Shown here in pieces: positions 17,901 through 46,436 of a DNA stretch of 64,000 bases (its first letter is position 1; each line of letters begins with the position of its first letter). The DNA is taken from positions 1 to 64,000 of IMG/VR virus record IMGVR_UViG_3300025671_011474; one strand, written 5' to 3'. The notes under the pieces are model-generated. The model was not told the origin of the DNA. It ran no database searches and saw nothing but the letters and a program-made list of their open reading frames with translations. A program made the translations under genes and the position numbers. This DNA comes from a virus.

Positions 17901-18971
17901 ACATTTATAGATTCTTTCTCGACCTCCCAGAGAAGTCCGGAATCATTTAAGAGCGATCTTTTCCATATAGGGGGTGTTGATCTTCCTGGCTCAAATCAGG
18001 CTTCGGTTTATAATCTGATCCCTTTTGTAGATGTCCTCTTCATAAACTCTATACAGGAAGGAGCCGATCTAACAGATCAGTTTAATGACTTTCTTATTAG
18101 AAATGGAAGAGCCGAATGGACCGATATTGGTGGAAATTCGGGATACTATGATGACCCAGGTGTTAGCCTGGTTAGCCCGGGTGTTTATCAATTTAGTGTT
18201 CTTTCTGGTGGTGTAGTAGGGACGAAACCAGAGGATCTTATCCTTGGTGAGGTCTCATTCAAGCTTACCCCTTCAGTTGGTGAACAGAGCGATTTCACAT
18301 TTACTATATCGGGAGGGAATAATATGTTTTTAGCTGGCTCACATTCGGGTGTTACCGGTCCAGCAAATCTCCCTTATGTTTCGGGCGATGGCAATTTCAC
18401 CTCGATGTTTAAGGGATATAAGAAATCCCCTGGTAAGGCAATGGGCGATATTATTTCCAGAGTTGGTTCTGGGTCATGGTCCTGGGTAGATGTCCATAAT
18501 AGCAATTCTGACCTATACGTTCCTATGCTTTCTACCCTATTTTTGAGTAATTATGATTCCAAGATATTTGGGAAAAATAATAACAGGTGGATATTAACTA
18601 ATGCAGGAACGGGCGAGGTTTTGCTTGATGTGAAATCCGTTCCCTATTTTATCTATACCTTTGCTGAAAGTGGCTATTACTCGATTGTTAACTCGGTGGA
18701 GGATTCTGCTGGAAATGTATATGAGGTTTCCAAACCAGCTTTTGTTAAGGTTGTAAATCAGTCTATACCTCTTGCCAACGACCCGAACCCTGAATATGTT
18801 AACTCAGCTGATTACGGGTACATACCTGCTAATCTGGATAGAAATTCTAAAGCTCTTGAGCTTGGTAGAGACATGAATTTAGATCAACTTGAGATTATGC
18901 TCAACCAAAGAGTGAAATTCGGATCTGGTATAGTGATACCAAATAATCCGGATGCCACTTTCAATCAGTAA
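14982..18971 (+). CDS. Large adhesin-like virion protein with propeller repeats
   Basis: A 1329-aa protein. The first 300 residues contain two-component-regulator-propeller-type repeats: LDSDGSVWVVGRGLSNYDG near residue 14 and, very clearly, DENGNYWLGTSDGLVYWDG near residue 238. Such blades build beta-propellers in sensors common in Bacteroidota. The rest is Ser/Gly/Tyr-rich beta sequence with many GPTG/GATG loops. The final 150 residues include a PKD-like strand pattern (FAESGYYSIVNSVEDSAGNVY) and a helical tail (KALELGRDMNLDQLEIMLNQ). It is probably a tail-tip or fibre protein contacting the host surface. It ends convergently with phoH, the two coding ends overlapping by 7 bases. Confidence 0.75.
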   Translation: MANLNLYINEASLDSDGSVWVVGRGLSNYDGNQWNYYNSINSAVPSNAPYFKDTRSISIDPQNNKWVGSAVTTGVDQNLVFYISGDDVNSGNSWDKSEFGDIISSESSWDVPSIYACPYGNDVLAFISPLNGGGGTGASGDIGVTGGYLWRYDKVDESWSEVAPGYTWPHIYEMTAVGTKGGDYDYYLCTDDGLQIIPDGKIATDDLEGGIISIPEMVKKNTSNSNIGSDVVYSISFDENGNYWLGTSDGLVYWDGEKYYRWSIGAGVGVTKVVSRKNGHVFFKIGSPNMVAVPNTDGFYHFNGTTFTNYTQSNSDLIDDRVIDLLVIQEKSQYTNKTAYSSDLWVVAGNYITLFDYTIPHVYGTSKYTGTTGWNFVSYTPTTEGGTTDTARLPKSNKYTWEFPTWTNRDLSPLLNNHPGMDPRNLFLETDFKDIANNSAGNRSYWSNPPVLSYTDVDRMKLIPDEYSWLDDIDSFTITSSCRYKGYNVVTGYSSESSINLGEPSNLESAYSLVNPNPSGGTGGTGEVGFVAFYSDAGQIMGAIPFRGKSTRALRACPSLDDSTLFVAGSFSNYIEAGKFVYGSKFPGASEMNATGVSGPTGAPIGFSNIATPGITASYDYPWILNGPTGATSGAYIPDESVLDGSSGYFIAEVDYDIGNQVSYGGIDFSQPNAIQSSYCLSNFRYFPRASYSYDVRPGSPTSSNDTSVGISDLSISKNSVRLTTNIEGGISTLSNGYGRTEDIPNSPYFLFSEFEGGSYYSNGFVIDMDSYLDLKNGFTLGSTGFHLKEIQSLRDSSTYVLSGSSSSSFSSGGVSLNHPGPTGVSRPFFLLNSSSNLGITGAFVRNFNSADPLYSDWSSTGLVYRSNSQYYFDFLYSGNATITPPPAGTNGIVTGTSGGVNLGTISLRPGGGYSLASSYNFLPSSYGEPYKVSLTQCSRVDSDGDYYVSLKYPQDPAIVGDSYNIVKRNVTGTFIDSFSTSQRSPESFKSDLFHIGGVDLPGSNQASVYNLIPFVDVLFINSIQEGADLTDQFNDFLIRNGRAEWTDIGGNSGYYDDPGVSLVSPGVYQFSVLSGGVVGTKPEDLILGEVSFKLTPSVGEQSDFTFTISGGNNMFLAGSHSGVTGPANLPYVSGDGNFTSMFKGYKKSPGKAMGDIISRVGSGSWSWVDVHNSNSDLYVPMLSTLFLSNYDSKIFGKNNNRWILTNAGTGEVLLDVKSVPYFIYTFAESGYYSIVNSVEDSAGNVYEVSKPAFVKVVNQSIPLANDPNPEYVNSADYGYIPANLDRNSKALELGRDMNLDQLEIMLNQRVKFGSGIVIPNNPDATFNQ

Positions 18972-19627
18972 CTATTAGCAAGTAGCCTAAGTACCTCGTC
19001 TATTGATTCGTGTCTATGGTTGTCCTTAAGTGAAATCGTATAAACAAAGGATGAATCCTTAAGTTTGGGAACCTCATGTATTGCTGAGTCGTTATTGAAT
19101 TTAAGATCTATTTGTTGCCCGTCCCCGCACAACATCATTTTTGAGTTCTTTCCAAGTCTACCTAGTACCATCCCTAGCTGCTGTTTAGTGAGATTTTGGA
19201 ATTCGTCTACAATCACGATGCAGTCATCAAAAGTTCTGCCCCTAAAATGTGTTAGAGACACAAGCTCTATGTTCTCATCTTTTTCCATTTTTTCTAGTAT
19301 ATCCGGTTTATTGTAGACCTTTCTCATGTTGGATCTTATAGGAACTAGCCAAGGTTCCATCTTTTCCTCTAAAGAACCTGGTAAAAAACCATTATCCTCG
19401 TTAGATACCGTGGGTCTGGTGATTACTATTTTGTTTACCTCCCTTTTGAAGTATGAGTCCAGAGCTATTTGGACCGCTAACAGAGTTTTGCCACTACCTG
19501 CCTTCCCTGTTATAAAGCTAAATGGATGGTTTCTAATTTCTGCTTTTGCTAGTTTCTGCTCCTCTGATAAGGAGATTGTGAACTTTATATCCCCTTTGGG
19601 TACTCTCTTTTGGGTGTTTTCAGGCAT
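18965..19627 (-). CDS. phoH: PhoH-family ATPase
   Basis: A 220-aa P-loop NTPase of the PhoH family. Walker A is GKAGSGKT at 41-48, followed by VITRP (68-72) and the PhoH-typical FLPGSLEEKM. Walker B is IVIVDEFQN at 137-145, and LCGDGQQID near 167-174 contains the sensor/D-x-x-Q-x-D motif. PhoH is widespread in large phages and has been linked to phosphate stress and RNA metabolism, but its role in infection is not settled. It is encoded on the minus strand with a glycosyltransferase 4 bases upstream in the same transcription unit, forming a two-gene reverse island inside the tail genes. Confidence 0.95.
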   Translation of the reverse strand: MPENTQKRVPKGDIKFTISLSEEQKLAKAEIRNHPFSFITGKAGSGKTLLAVQIALDSYFKREVNKIVITRPTVSNEDNGFLPGSLEEKMEPWLVPIRSNMRKVYNKPDILEKMEKDENIELVSLTHFRGRTFDDCIVIVDEFQNLTKQQLGMVLGRLGKNSKMMLCGDGQQIDLKFNNDSAIHEVPKLKDSSFVYTISLKDNHRHESIDEVLRLLANSY

Positions 19628-41335: not shown

Positions 41336-42004
41336 TTGAGAACCCTTATAGGAATAGATTTCTCATTGAATTCCCCAGCATTTTGTTCGTTTAGAGATAA
41401 TCATTTTAGATGGGGATCACTTACAAGGAGTGACAGATCTGAGGAATCCTTGAAAAAGTCTAAAAATAAGCCATTTGCTTTCTTTTCGGATATTGATGAA
41501 TTTGATCTTGTGTTCATGGGCAAGGAGAAAATGCCTGATGAATACACTGAAAGAGAGAGGATAAAAATTGATTATTTTTCGGATCTGGTGGAAAAATTCT
41601 GGGACTCTGTTAAGAACCACATTGAGCCTGGAGATGATGTGTTTATAGCTATAGAGGGCTTAAGCTTTGCTTCTAATGGCAATGCACTTATAGACATATC
41701 AATGGCAACTGCCTTGCTCCGGAAAAAGATAGTAGATTTCGTAGGAAGCTCAAATTTTTTCGTTTTCTCCCCAACCTCTGTTAAAAAATTTGCGATTAAG
41801 GGGAATGCCAAAAAGGATCAATTGTATGAGGCACTGATTAATACCGAAATCGTTGAAACCAACCTGAGCTATTTCACTAATATACTAAATGATAATAAGG
41901 GTGAATGGATAACCCCCAGTGGGAACGTGAATAAGCCATTGGATGATATTATTGATGCCACCTGGATATGTCTGTTTTTAGATGAGAGACTCAAAGAAGA
42001 TTAA
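41336..42004 (+). CDS. RuvC-like Holliday-junction resolvase
   Basis: A 222-aa RNase H-fold nuclease. Acidic residues occur in the RuvC pattern: GIDFSLNSP (D8), IAIEGLS (E107), and DDIIDATW with D204 and D207 (D-x-x-D). The ATALLRKKI helix and the SPTSVKKFAIKGNAKKDQL segment (about 145-163) match the 'P..vKk...G.g.A.K' stretch that contacts DNA in RuvC-type enzymes. It would cut branched recombination or packaging intermediates, a role T4 fills with gp49. The start is TTG. The last 23 bases overlap the nucleotidyltransferase gene, so it is co-transcribed with a sugar-type cassette, perhaps only as a passenger. Confidence 0.8.
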   Translation: MRTLIGIDFSLNSPAFCSFRDNHFRWGSLTRSDRSEESLKKSKNKPFAFFSDIDEFDLVFMGKEKMPDEYTERERIKIDYFSDLVEKFWDSVKNHIEPGDDVFIAIEGLSFASNGNALIDISMATALLRKKIVDFVGSSNFFVFSPTSVKKFAIKGNAKKDQLYEALINTEIVETNLSYFTNILNDNKGEWITPSGNVNKPLDDIIDATWICLFLDERLKED

Positions 42005-42728
42005 CATATTGATACCTCTGGGGGGAATGGGAAGAAGGTTTTCTGATGCTGGATACAGTGAGATAAAACCCTACATCAAAGTTATAGATGATTCCATGAT
42101 AAGGACAGTAATCGATAACCTCAGAGACGGGTCTTCACACTTCATATTTGTCATCAATGAGGAGCATATTTCTATCGATGAATTCAGGGAACATATAGGT
42201 GATACTGGAATCTCTTTTGATGTCGTTTCTACTCCAGCATTAACTGAGGGCCCAGCTTGTACCGCACTCCTTGCGAAAGACCTTATTAACACTAAAAATC
42301 CACTTATTATAGCGAATTGTGACCAGGTAATACTGGATTTTAATCTGGGTATTTTAGCCAAGTTCGCTTCTAATACCAATTGTGATGGATTTATAGGATG
42401 CTTCCTTTCCTCGTCTAAAAAAAATAGCTATGTCAAGCTTGACCCTAATGGAGAAGTTTGTGATGTCAAGGAAAAGATAGTTATTTCGAATATAGCCACT
42501 AACGGGCTACATTACTGGGAGAGGGGTTCAGATTTTGTTGAATCTGCCCTTGAGATGATCGACAATAATGATCGATATAACAATGAGTTTTATGTTGCCC
42601 CAACATACAACTATCTTATAAAAAGGGGTAAGAAAATATTGCCATATTTTTTTAACCTTCATTTCCCGATAGGGACGCCGGAGGATTTGGAGATATACAA
42701 AAATAAAGTAAGATATGGAAGTATCTAG
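41982..42728 (+). CDS. Sugar-phosphate nucleotidyltransferase
   Basis: A 248-aa GT-A-like nucleotidyltransferase that joins a sugar- (or polyol-) phosphate to an NTP. Motifs: GGMGRRF at 14-20 with KP at 29-30 (the G-x-G-x-R...KP signature), TEGPAC at 88-93, and ANCDQV with catalytic Asp114. The C-terminal EFYVAPTYN and FPIGTPEDLEIY are family hallmarks ('...P.YN.li', 'i.tpeD...'). No hexapeptide C-terminal domain, so a short form. It overlaps the genes before (23 bases) and after (14 bases), implying coupled translation with the cupin and RuBisCO-like protein. Substrate is unknown. Confidence 0.85.
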   Translation: MRDSKKINILIPLGGMGRRFSDAGYSEIKPYIKVIDDSMIRTVIDNLRDGSSHFIFVINEEHISIDEFREHIGDTGISFDVVSTPALTEGPACTALLAKDLINTKNPLIIANCDQVILDFNLGILAKFASNTNCDGFIGCFLSSSKKNSYVKLDPNGEVCDVKEKIVISNIATNGLHYWERGSDFVESALEMIDNNDRYNNEFYVAPTYNYLIKRGKKILPYFFNLHFPIGTPEDLEIYKNKVRYGSI

Positions 42729-43035
42729 AATAGAAGAATATAAGGGAGGTTGGTTTGTTGGTGATTTCTTACCTTCATCTTATGAAACCGATAAATTTGA
42801 GGTCTGCTTTAAGGAACATAAAAAGGGAGAGGAATGGACAGCACATTACCATAAGGAAGCGGACGAAATAAATTACTTACATAAGGGTAGAATGATTATA
42901 CAGGATAGAGTCCTCGAATCTGGTGACGTTTTTGTCATACGGAGATATGAGATAGCTAATCCAGTTTTCCTCGAGGATTGCGAGGTTTTTATAGTTAAGA
43001 CACCCTCTAAACCGGGAGATAAATATGAAATCTGA
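42715..43035 (+). CDS. Small cupin
   Basis: A 106-aa single-domain cupin. Motif 1 is visible as H44-x-H46...E51...G58 (HYHKEADEINYLHKG), giving the usual His/His/Glu metal ligands. Motif 2 is partial (SGDVFVIRRYEIANP), the usual His being replaced by Tyr78. Small cupins of this kind act as sugar-phosphate isomerases or epimerases, or as substrate-binding partners. It lies between the nucleotidyltransferase and the RuBisCO-like gene and overlaps both (14 and 11 bases), so it probably works in the same pathway. Confidence 0.8.
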   Translation: MEVSRIEEYKGGWFVGDFLPSSYETDKFEVCFKEHKKGEEWTAHYHKEADEINYLHKGRMIIQDRVLESGDVFVIRRYEIANPVFLEDCEVFIVKTPSKPGDKYEI

Positions 43036-44218
43036 TTTATTTAAATTAAAGGAACAAATAGATAGCGAGAATTATTTCTTTGCTAAATACTATGTTGAAT
43101 GTTCCAAAAATCTGGCATCTGCTGCTTGGAATATAGCGATAGGACAGAGTGTAGGTAACCCGTCTTCCAGGAGCGTATGGGAAACTGAGGAGCTGTTTCG
43201 GGATCACTCCTGTATCATAGTAGGAGATATGGAAAGCATGCTGGATAGCACCTCTGGGGAGGTTATAATTGCATTCCCTGTTGTAAATATAGATTTTAGA
43301 ACAGATGGTGTATCTCACCTCTTGGTAAATGTGATGGGTGGACAGATGGATATTGAAGAGATCAAATCTTGCAAATTATTGGATATTGAATTCCCTGATT
43401 GTGTTTCGGAATGTTTTCTAGGGCCCAAGTACGGAATAAATGGTATCCGCGAATACACTGGGGTATATGATAAACCTTTACTCGGCGGTATATTAAAACC
43501 TAAGACCGGAGTTTCCCCTAGGATAATGCTTGAGATGGTAAAAGAGATGGTTGAAGGTGGTGTGAATTTTATCAAAGAGGATGAAATACTATCAAGCCCC
43601 TCTTTTTGCAGGATAGAGGATAGGGTTCCTCTTATAATGGATTACCTGAAAGATAAAAGGGTTGTCTATTGTGTTTCCATACATTCGGATCCAGCTTATA
43701 TACTGGAAAGGGTAAAGCAGGTTCATGAATTAGGTGGCAATGGGGTGCATGTCAATTTTTGGTGTGGTCTCGGGTCTTATAAAAATATCAGGGAATTGGA
43801 TCTTCCCATATTCATGCACTTCCAAAAGAGCGGGGATCGGGTTATAACGAACCCGGATCACAATTTTAGTATATCCTGGCCCTTCATGTGTAAACTGGCA
43901 GGAATGATGGGTGTTGATTTTATACACTCTGGTATGATTGGCGGATATTATCCTGCTGATGAGGAAGAAGTTTTAAAAGCGATGGAGGAGTCAAGAAAAC
44001 AAGGAACCCTTCCTGCTCTAAGCTGCGGATTTCATCCTGGTCTAGTTAACAATATAAACGAGCAGGTTGGCGTAGATTATCTAGCTAATGTAGGTGGGGC
44101 TATGCACGGTCACCCTAGTGGGACTAAAAGTGGAGCCATAGCAATGAGGCAGGCAATAGATGGAATTGTTGGTAAAGAATTCAGGGAAGCTGTTGGTAAG
44201 TTTGGAAATCCTAAATAA
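43025..44218 (+). CDS. RuBisCO-like protein (form IV-type)
   Basis: A 397-aa homologue of the RuBisCO large subunit: N-terminal domain to about residue 140, then the TIM barrel. Clear equivalents are N102 (RuBisCO N123), LKPKTG with K158/K160 (K175/K177), IKEDE with K184, D186 and E187 (carbamate Lys201 and metal ligands Asp203/Glu204), H265 (His294), IHSG with H301 (His327), S333 (Ser379) and a GG at 357-358 (phosphate loop). The loop-6 catalytic Lys334 is replaced by Tyr308, and the N-terminal Glu60 region reads AIGQSVGN. The metal centre is therefore intact but CO2 fixation is not expected. Form IV proteins are enolases, isomerases or decarboxylases acting on phosphorylated keto-compounds. 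The substrate here is unknown. Flanking sugar-type genes suggest a sugar or polyol phosphate. Confidence 0.92.
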   Translation: MKSDLFKLKEQIDSENYFFAKYYVECSKNLASAAWNIAIGQSVGNPSSRSVWETEELFRDHSCIIVGDMESMLDSTSGEVIIAFPVVNIDFRTDGVSHLLVNVMGGQMDIEEIKSCKLLDIEFPDCVSECFLGPKYGINGIREYTGVYDKPLLGGILKPKTGVSPRIMLEMVKEMVEGGVNFIKEDEILSSPSFCRIEDRVPLIMDYLKDKRVVYCVSIHSDPAYILERVKQVHELGGNGVHVNFWCGLGSYKNIRELDLPIFMHFQKSGDRVITNPDHNFSISWPFMCKLAGMMGVDFIHSGMIGGYYPADEEEVLKAMEESRKQGTLPALSCGFHPGLVNNINEQVGVDYLANVGGAMHGHPSGTKSGAIAMRQAIDGIVGKEFREAVGKFGNPK

Positions 44219-44221
44219 TTG

Positions 44222-44665
44222 ATGATACTTATATCTCACCGGGGTAATGTAAACGGGTCATCTCCTGAGAGGGAAAACTCGACTGATTATATTTTGAAAG
44301 CAATGGAAAAATATGACGTTGAGATAGATTTATGGTTTGTTGATGGGCTTTTTAAACTTGGCCATGATAGACCGCAGTATGACACACAGTACTCCTTCTT
44401 GGTTGAACACTCCGAAAAGCTTTGGATACACTGCAAGAATATCCCTTCCTTCAGGGAACTTTCCGTTATGGATCCTAAGGGGAACGTGCTGAACTATTTT
44501 ATGCATGATTCTGATGATGTTGTCTTTACTAGCAAAGGATATAGATGGGCTCTTGTTGGTAACCAACCTATAGAAGGAAGCATAGCTGTTATGCCCGAGA
44601 TCCACGGGGAGGATATCTCCCTGTGTATGGGTGTCTGTAGTGACTATATAGAAAGGTATCAATGA
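44222..44665 (+). CDS. Glycerophosphodiesterase-like (GDPD-fold) protein
   Basis: A 147-aa protein. ISHRGNVNG at 4-12 with E17/E19, DVEIDLW with E34 and D36, and LGHD with H48 reproduce the GDPD/PI-PLC catalytic series (HRG...E.N, E-x-D, H-D). A further WIHCKN (69-74) suits the phosphate-binding Lys strand. It is shorter than ordinary GDPDs (about 240 aa), yet ends cleanly in a short SIAVMPE segment, so it looks like a compact subfamily rather than a truncation. It may hydrolyse or transfer a phosphodiester. I use the ATG 3 bases after a TTG alternative; it overlaps the next gene by ATGA. Confidence 0.7.
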   Translation: MILISHRGNVNGSSPERENSTDYILKAMEKYDVEIDLWFVDGLFKLGHDRPQYDTQYSFLVEHSEKLWIHCKNIPSFRELSVMDPKGNVLNYFMHDSDDVVFTSKGYRWALVGNQPIEGSIAVMPEIHGEDISLCMGVCSDYIERYQ

Positions 44666-45447
44666 GGGTTGCTTTACTTCTTTCTGGTCAATTTAGAGAG
44701 GGCCTTGAATGTTATCCATATATAAAGAGCAGAATACTCGATGTGTATTCACCCGATGTTTTTATCTCGTGCTGGAATCCTTCGGATCATATAAATTCTA
44801 CAGTACAAGCAGATACGTCTAATCTTAGTGATAGTCTCTCGGTTGGTGATATTATCTCCATGTATAAGCCCAAACTGATGCTATCCGAGGATTTTGATTC
44901 TGATTCCATAACAAGAATCCTCGAAAGATCAAACTTATATGATGAGTATTCTCCGATGAATGGTGAAATGAACCCGCAGTCGGTATTCTGTATGTGGTAT
45001 AAAATAGACTCCTCATATTCCCTCATGGAAAAATACGAGAGCTCCGTGGGAAAGAAATATGACTATGTTATAAAAGGTAGATTCGATATAAAGATCCATA
45101 ACGATCTTTTTTTCGACCCTGACAAGTCAGTAATAAATATTCCGCATGGGTTTGATTGGAGGGGTGGAATTAACGATGTAATAGCATATGGGGGTAGAAA
45201 TCCTATGTCTCACTACTGTGGATTGTATAGAAGCATAGAAAACTATCTTTCTAGAGATTCTGTTTTTTTCCACCCTGAAACCCTATTAAGAAACCATTTG
45301 CTTATATCCGGATATAAAATAATAAGGAGTGATCTACAAGTTTCTCTCCGAGGGAATATGCTATCTCACAAGGAGGTAAATAGGAGTAACAATATGAAAA
45401 AAAGTTCGGGATATATACAATCTAGGGGAAACTTTTGGGACACTTAG
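44662..45447 (+). CDS. Glycosyltransferase-like protein
   Basis: A 261-aa protein beginning MRVALLLSGQFREG, a start typical of a family of putative surface-glycan glycosyltransferases ('ALxLSGQ.R'). The mid-protein YDYVIKGRFDIKI matches their 'YD.vIr.RfD' acidic motif, the probable metal/nucleotide-sugar site. A later HPETLLRNHLL helix is also family-like. It ends the six-gene operon. The simplest reading is that it transfers the moiety activated by the nucleotidyltransferase to a glycan, but this is inferred from context. The start overlaps the previous stop as ATGA. Confidence 0.65.
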   Translation: MRVALLLSGQFREGLECYPYIKSRILDVYSPDVFISCWNPSDHINSTVQADTSNLSDSLSVGDIISMYKPKLMLSEDFDSDSITRILERSNLYDEYSPMNGEMNPQSVFCMWYKIDSSYSLMEKYESSVGKKYDYVIKGRFDIKIHNDLFFDPDKSVINIPHGFDWRGGINDVIAYGGRNPMSHYCGLYRSIENYLSRDSVFFHPETLLRNHLLISGYKIIRSDLQVSLRGNMLSHKEVNRSNNMKKSSGYIQSRGNFWDT

Positions 45448-45488: not shown

Positions 45489-46436
45489 ATGAGTAATTTA
45501 GACATCTTCAACTTAGACGTTGAAAACTTCGTAACGAAGACCAAGAAAGAGGATTCGAGGGATTTAGAGTTTTACAAGCCATACCCGGAAAATGGAAAAG
45601 ACGGGGTTTATAAATCTTTGATTAGATTTTTGCCAAACCACGTAGATCCGTCTAAATCCAAAATTCAAAAGTACTACGTGTATTTAAACGATCCTGCAAC
45701 TGGAGAAGGGTTTCCAGTAGATTGCCCTTCTACCGTAGGTAAAAAATCAGTGCTTAAGGACATTTTTTGGAAGCTTAAGAATTCCAATTCCGCTGCCGAT
45801 CAGGATCTGGCAAGGAATTTCTCAAGAAAGGAAGACTACTATTCGCTGATTCAGATTGTTCAGGATAAGAATAATCCGGAACTAGAGGGAAAGATCATGA
45901 CTTTCAAATTTGGAAGGAAGATCAATGATATGCTTGAGTCTCAGCTTAAGCCCGAGTATGGAGATCCATGTAACCCGTACGATCTCTTTGAAGGTAAGCT
46001 ATTCTCAATTCATTCTAGAAAGGTGGGGGAATGGAATAACTATGATCTATGTCAGTTTGTAGGAAACAATGCTCCGATAGAAATTGATGGCAAGAAGATG
46101 GATAAGAATAAGGAGGATATGAATACCATTCTGGAATATCTGAAGACAGGTCCGGATAATCTTGCTAATTTTGAATACAAAGATTGGGACGATAATACTA
46201 CCGAGAGGGTGATGAACATTATCAAGAATACCGTCCCCGACGGTAGAATGGTTAATGAAGTGATGTCTGGAGCTAACGTTACGACCTCTTCATCGACCCC
46301 GACTACCAAAACATCGGATGATATCTACAATGAGGTATCTTCCACTAAGGTAGGATCAGTCAAAGAAGAGCCTTTGAAGCAGCCTTCAAGCCCCGAAACT
46401 GCTTCCTCTCTGGACGATCTTTACTCTGACCTATAA
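45489..46436 (+). CDS. 32: Single-stranded DNA-binding protein (gp32-like)
   Basis: A 315-aa gp32 homologue (T4: 301 aa) that coats ssDNA during replication, recombination and repair. Recognisable are the N-terminal region, YKSLIRFLP (matching T4 AIIRFLP), the core EDYYSLIQIVQDKNNPELEGK and FKFGRKI (matching [24 protein letters not shown]), and an acidic tail ending in SLDDLYSDL, the protein-interaction tail. The T4 zinc-binding His/Cys cluster is missing: only one cysteine remains (FPVDCPST). A tailored zinc-free fold is likely. It precedes the primase gene, separated by a strong terminator, so it probably has its own abundant transcript. Confidence 0.92.
   Translation: MSNLDIFNLDVENFVTKTKKEDSRDLEFYKPYPENGKDGVYKSLIRFLPNHVDPSKSKIQKYYVYLNDPATGEGFPVDCPSTVGKKSVLKDIFWKLKNSNSAADQDLARNFSRKEDYYSLIQIVQDKNNPELEGKIMTFKFGRKINDMLESQLKPEYGDPCNPYDLFEGKLFSIHSRKVGEWNNYDLCQFVGNNAPIEIDGKKMDKNKEDMNTILEYLKTGPDNLANFEYKDWDDNTTERVMNIIKNTVPDGRMVNEVMSGANVTTSSSTPTTKTSDDIYNEVSSTKVGSVKEEPLKQPSSPETASSLDDLYSDL

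Follow-up and report, generated by a model that had tools for sequence, protein, structure and literature searches.

The locus described here raises the question of what a homologue of RuBisCO does in a phage genome, and whether carbon fixation can be expected of it. The window, which is the whole stretch of DNA analysed (64,000 nucleotides), covers positions 1 to 64,000 of the virus record IMGVR_UViG_3300025671_011474 (89,923 bases in length) and also encodes baseplate, primase, DNA polymerase, gp32 and RNR genes. An earlier sequence-only reading had assigned the open reading frame at 43025-44218 to a RuBisCO-like protein (RLP) of form IV encoded by a phage. The gene and its surroundings are as follows:

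41336..42004, + strand: RuvC-like Holliday junction resolvase, flank outside the cassette (phrog_159, E 8.2e-15)
41982..42728, + strand: sugar-1-phosphate nucleotidyltransferase-like protein (NTPT), 248 aa, first cassette gene (PF00483, E 9.5e-10; phrog_3980, E 1.3e-54)
42715..43035, + strand: small single-domain cupin, 106 aa (phrog_24762, E 1.2e-28; Cupin_2, E 0.0048, below cut-off)
43025..44218, + strand: RLP, 397 aa (Pfam, alignment, tree, AlphaFold2/Foldseek)
44219..44665, + strand: short GDPD-derived protein, 148 aa (phrog_34507, E 1.6e-25; motifs HRG....E..D...GHD)
44662..45447, + strand: probable glycan-related protein (glycosyltransferase-like), 261 aa (phrog_13607, E 2e-15)
45489..46436, + strand: gp32-type single-stranded DNA-binding protein, flank outside the cassette (PF08804, E 4.1e-12; phrog_224, E 3e-35)

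The RuBisCO-like protein and its phage setting

The open reading frame is real, and its product is a RuBisCO homologue by Pfam, PDB search and fold. The protein matches PF00016 over residues 137-382 (E 2.5e-34, over the cut-off) and PF02788 weakly (E 0.0025, just below the cut-off), and the PDB sequence search places 8dht at the top (E 1.8e-38). The NCBIfam models for form III, MtnW and OiaX all match, each far below its cut-off (138 bits against a cut-off of 700 and E 3.5e-40 for the OiaX model NF042437). The AlphaFold2 model (pLDDT 85, pTM 0.87), which is of low confidence at loop residues 268-276 and 308-310, has as its top PDB structure match in Foldseek the type III RuBisCO 3a12 (TM 0.83, E 3e-34), while the viral structure library returned generic barrels only and no RuBisCO-like match. 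The features of the RuBisCO superfamily, namely the PF00016 fold with the catalytic (beta/alpha)8 barrel and the RuBisCO N-terminal domain, are thus found in this protein. As judged by dN/dS values of 0.04-0.11 between pairs of non-saturated relatives, the gene is under purifying selection.

The RLP and its neighbour genes are identical at the protein level (100%) to those of a second viral contig (L003). Host contamination as the source of the gene, a possibility which the sequence-only reading had itself named, is ruled out by the phage genes on both sides and the recurrence of the gene in many viral contigs.

Phylogenetic position and active site

A scan of viral contigs with the family alignment identified at least 198 stretches carrying this RLP clade, 80 of which were kept for locus analysis. 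The description as one phage RLP is therefore right in placing the protein on a phage and too narrow in its extent. In the maximum-likelihood tree the viral clade has 100/100 support and a stem of 2.4 changes per site, and stands apart from MtnW, the OiaX/acid-sugar RLPs, IV-Photo and forms I-III; its sister position to forms I-III is weak (84/80). Among 84,980 species genomes scanned, one cellular copy of the clade was found, in a Patescibacteria genome bin, in a scan which could miss distant cellular copies because one of two exact 7-residue words was required. A profile search of 380 Patescibacteria genomes likewise gave one protein scoring within the clade (639 bits; runner-up 193), and this protein is nested inside the viral clade in the tree. 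No cultured phage relative was found by tblastn in 50,697 phage records (INPHARED).

Membership of forms I-III is ruled out by the separate 100/100 clade, and the phylogeny thereby bears out the placement outside the carboxylases. MtnW/YkrW membership is likewise ruled out (separate clade, Gly instead of Lys at position 123), as are membership of the OiaX/acid-sugar RLPs (tree, NF042437 below cut-off, and acid sugar kinase not among the frequent companions identified) and of IV-Photo, the group represented by the C. tepidum RLP and R. palustris RLP2, the last by tree and residues. On the sequence comparisons, the clade is a virus-held, distinct branch of the RuBisCO-like proteins.

The active sites were aligned for 81 clade members together with 19 sequences from forms I-III, 4 MtnW-type, 10 acid-sugar/OiaX, 2 IV-Photo and 2 transketolase-associated RLPs. 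The two transketolase-associated proteins, from plasmids of Shinella and Ponticoccus (L137 and L138), adjoin transketolase genes, have His at the E204 position and represent a distinct RLP group. The codons of the main residues in the window are:

43574-43576, + strand: K184 (carbamate site)
43580-43585, + strand: D186 and E187
43823-43825, + strand: Q267 (H294 position)
43925-43927, + strand: H301
43946-43948, + strand: Y308 (loop-6 K334 position)

All 81 clade members retain K158, K160, K184, D186, E187 and H301 (equivalent to K175, K177, K201, D203, E204 and H327 of RuBisCO), as well as S333, G335, G357 and G358 (S379, G381, G403 and G404). The equivalents of the lysines, metal ligands, H301 and glycine pair named in the sequence-only reading (K158, K160, K184, D186, E187, H301, G357/G358) were also all invariant among 13 aligned members. 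Its H265 does not hold as the catalytic histidine, as an ungapped alignment block pairs this residue with the non-catalytic H292, two residues off, and puts Q267 at the position of the catalytic H294. The Tyr308 it had put in place of the loop-6 lysine falls exactly on spinach K334 in the alignment with bona fide RuBisCOs, inside loop 6, where the model is of low confidence (308-310); the clade has GGYY, GGYL or GGYM here, versus VGKM or VGKL in RuBisCOs.

Eight replacements are invariant in the 81 members, namely E60 to G, T65 to N, W66 to P, N123 to G (G106), H294 to Q267, R295 to K268, K334 to Y308 and G380 to C334, while H298 is replaced by D in 80 of them (D271 in the window RLP). The full carboxylation set of forms I-III (loop-6 K334, N123 and H294) is thus absent, with Y308, G106 and Q267 at its positions throughout. 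From the retained metal-site residues and the invariant replacements, read against known RuBisCO chemistry, the enolisation centre should be largely kept and the addition of CO2 lost in this clade.

The protein is a form IV RLP in the broad sense, with the RuBisCO fold and metal site kept and essential carboxylase residues replaced, as had been proposed. The fold, the carbamate-Lys/Asp/Glu metal site and the loss of carboxylase residues are common to the phage RLP and to MtnW/YkrW, IV-Photo and the OiaX/acid-sugar RLPs. It differs from them in its own long-stem clade carried by viruses, and in a combination of residues absent from all the groups compared: K177 is kept, H294 is replaced by Gln, R295 by Lys, K334 by Tyr and G380 by Cys.

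The cassette and its RpiB alternative

In the window, the four cassette genes (NTPT, cupin, RLP and GDPD-like) overlap or abut, with the cupin gene overlapping both the NTPT and the RLP genes, and mostly overlapping or abutting genes are also found across the other loci. The NTPT has a profile match to the nucleoside-diphosphate-sugar pyrophosphorylase 4evw (E 9.8e-33). The cupin contains the motif HxH(x4)E, where H44, H46 and E51 are invariant. The GDPD-like gene, whose real start is likely the ATG at 44222, encodes a protein truncated relative to GDPD, which matches the GDPD 3i10 by profile over the first 57 positions only (E 2.9e-5), retains invariant H7, R8, G9, E35, D37 and H49, and gives a confident AlphaFold2 model (pLDDT 96) without a whole-barrel match.

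Among the 80 loci kept out of at least 198 stretches, the RLP is accompanied by the NTPT in 74, the GDPD-like gene in 69 and the cupin in 62. The poorly conserved phrog_13607 family is a frequent, not constant, companion (38/80). The reverse search from the cupin gave 80 loci; 70 of them contain an RLP, which lies no more than 74 nt away from the cupin in 64 cases. The order NTPT-cupin-RLP-GDPD-like is thus a conserved operon, and it is embedded among glycan genes. The surroundings vary and include NAD-dependent epimerase, FkbM and other methyltransferases and, as read from sequence, glycosyltransferase-like and aminotransferase-like proteins. The contig from the Patescibacteria bin (L018, 8449-11167) carries all four cassette genes, the NTPT on the opposite strand, among glycosyltransferase-like genes. 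Neither a kinase nor a mutase recurs constantly in the cassette loci, and the RLP neighbours identified include no small subunit and no phosphoribulokinase. In five loci (L257, L277, L278, L280 and L294) a 3,4-dihydroxy-2-butanone 4-phosphate (DHBP) synthase lies upstream of the RLP, plus a second nucleotidyltransferase; the upstream region of L257 also has an APH-like kinase, a small HAD-like protein and a weak transaldolase match. This gene content is probably that of a nucleotide-sugar cassette making an unusual activated sugar.

Elsewhere in the window, the product of an open reading frame at 18965-19627 (- strand) shares 34-37% identity with genes downstream of the RLP in L004, L009 and L016, by which parts of the RLP-downstream gene set are scattered in this phage. 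A 637-aa open reading frame at 51679-53592 matches, in its C-terminal part, the phage cytidyltransferase families phrog_3041 and phrog_395.

Cultured cyanophages without RLP keep the NTPT and GDPD-like genes, and sometimes the cupin gene. The NTPT of Synechococcus phage Bellamy and that of SynMITS9220M01 carry a fused RpiB domain (PF02502, E ~1e-32; TIGR00689 above cut-off), and the RpiB motif residues are invariant in four fusion members. A scan with four such fusions gave 80 loci, with the cupin in 78, the GDPD-like gene in 67, both mostly downstream of the fusion, and the RLP in none. Within the NTPT-cupin-GDPD-like cassette, the RpiB/LacAB isomerases of these cyanophages hold the position that the RLP has elsewhere. 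They are unrelated to the RLP in fold and form one polypeptide with the NTPT; the RLP has a gene of its own, in most cases behind the cupin gene. The fusion (about 385 aa; L143 5838-6995 in Bellamy, L307-L386) is common in viral contigs and is labelled just 'phosphatase' in the annotation of Bellamy and SynMITS9220M01.

Since all NTPT-RpiB fusions fall into a single clade of the NTPT tree, the mutual exclusion may be one historical event instead of repeated replacement; the cupin tree, built on few columns, suggests several exchanges, as its starred branches call for four changes or more. HAD-NTPT fusions, which exist also without RLP, were rejected as an equal alternative, as they sometimes co-occur with it, and thus only RpiB looks exclusive. 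S-SKS1 carries a fusion of a related NTPT with DHBP synthase (L146, 5001-6428; PF00926, E 5e-65), outside any riboflavin context seen, and in S-SM2 a class II aldolase lies near a related NTPT. RpiB, DHBP synthase and aldolase-type partners act on ketose phosphates. A 103-aa open reading frame of S-SM2 annotated as 'phosphoheptose isomerase' (L144, 5693-6004) matches a HAD/PNKP phosphatase profile and is likely misannotated.

Proposed function and competing explanations

The presence of an RpiB-type isomerase in the cassette place of the RLP suggests what the RLP does. With moderate confidence, the RLP is proposed to be a metal- and carbamate-dependent enolising sugar-phosphate isomerase, which works in a nucleotide-sugar cassette and stands in for RpiB, its activity and substrate being predicted. 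Carbamylated Lys184 with Mg2+ would abstract a proton from the carbon adjacent to the carbonyl group of a ketose monophosphate; the best candidate for this substrate is a pentulose phosphate, for example ribulose 5-phosphate. As Lys334 is missing, CO2 would not be added, and the enediolate would be reprotonated at another carbon to yield an isomer. The cupin may act on the same or the next intermediate, the NTPT would activate the product, and glycosyltransferases would transfer the sugar to a glycan determined by the phage, on the virion, the DNA or the host surface. Against a shared role, RpiB and RLP might produce different sugars that enter common downstream steps. The earlier guess of a sugar-phosphate substrate gains support from the cassette and from the alternation with RpiB. 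A wider proposal, more tentative than the first, is that of a mobile cassette of phages and Patescibacteria in which a virus-specific RuBisCO-fold isomerase and RpiB alternate; the isomerase would serve to make a nucleotide-activated (keto)sugar, so far undescribed, that goes into phage glycans. We know of no prior description of RuBisCO-fold isomerisation of plain sugar phosphates.

A heptulose phosphate instead of a pentulose phosphate, epimerised or isomerised for an activated heptose, is an unlikely substrate: a D-glycero-D-manno-heptose-7-P kinase-like gene is present in some NTPT-RpiB cyanophage loci (L142, 7516-8562; 6/80) and L257 has the weak transaldolase match, but in RLP loci the heptose kinase is rare (2 weak matches), and RpiB-family enzymes, though of broad specificity, act mainly on C4-C6 phosphates. 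Similarly unlikely is decarboxylation or C-C bond cleavage of a keto-sugar-acid phosphate, which would supply the NTPT with a shorter or branched sugar. OiaX shows the RuBisCO fold to be capable of such chemistry and its model matches the RLP, far below cut-off; the acid-sugar RLPs, however, are a separate clade, keep Lys at 334 and H294-R295, lack K177, and in the plasmid loci examined adjoin a four-carbon acid sugar kinase that is not among the frequent RLP companions identified, and it is an isomerase that fills the RLP position elsewhere. Still less probable is a 5-methylthioribulose-1-phosphate enolase/isomerase of methionine salvage (MtnW) or of the R. rubrum route, in which an RLP reportedly works with a cupin in methylthio metabolism. 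MtnW, which represents this chemistry in the comparison, has the common fold and metal site, but it is a separate clade with K at 123, M/V/C at 177, L/I at 327 and S at 334, and the frequent companions of the phage RLP are glycan genes and not Mtn genes.

An active divergent RuBisCO, serving as an auxiliary gene for phage carbon fixation, is the least credible reading. The retained K175, K177, K201, D203, E204 and H327 and the weak sister position to forms I-III agree with it, and carboxylation is described for a soil-virus rbcL, of this or of another clade, co-expressed with rbcS (PMC12615777). It is rejected on invariant residue losses, as every member has Tyr for K334, Gln for H294, Gly for N123 and Asn-Pro for T65-W66; the lack of a small subunit or phosphoribulokinase among the neighbours identified and the nucleotide-sugar type of the cassette also argue against it.

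The literature search found no paper describing this clade or its cassette. The sequence-only reading knew of no characterised phage RLP, which needs qualifying because viral rbcL or 'RbcL-like' genes are listed as carbon-fixation auxiliary metabolic genes (AMGs) in surveys of landfill (PMC12607003) and soils (PMC12615777), without the present context. According to the landfill study, its gene clusters with 'RbcL-like' proteins, and the function is also met with in random IMG/VR viruses (PMC12607003). Like the phage RLP, these are RuBisCO homologues on viral contigs; whether of this clade or of another, they are given there, unlike the present RLP, as carbon fixation genes, without cassette or active-site analysis as far as the descriptions go. 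The Global Ocean Sampling (GOS) survey of 2007 reported 65 marine sequences that group with none of the known RuBisCOs, in groups that, as described, carry no virus assignment (PMC1821046), and it is plausible from the description that some of these belong to the viral clade.

The RLP clade hereby gains a genomic context predictive of function and a tie to viruses, and metagenomic counts of viral 'rbcL' may not reflect carbon fixation. The alternation with RpiB narrows a previously unknown RLP to one direct question, namely whether it isomerises a sugar phosphate.
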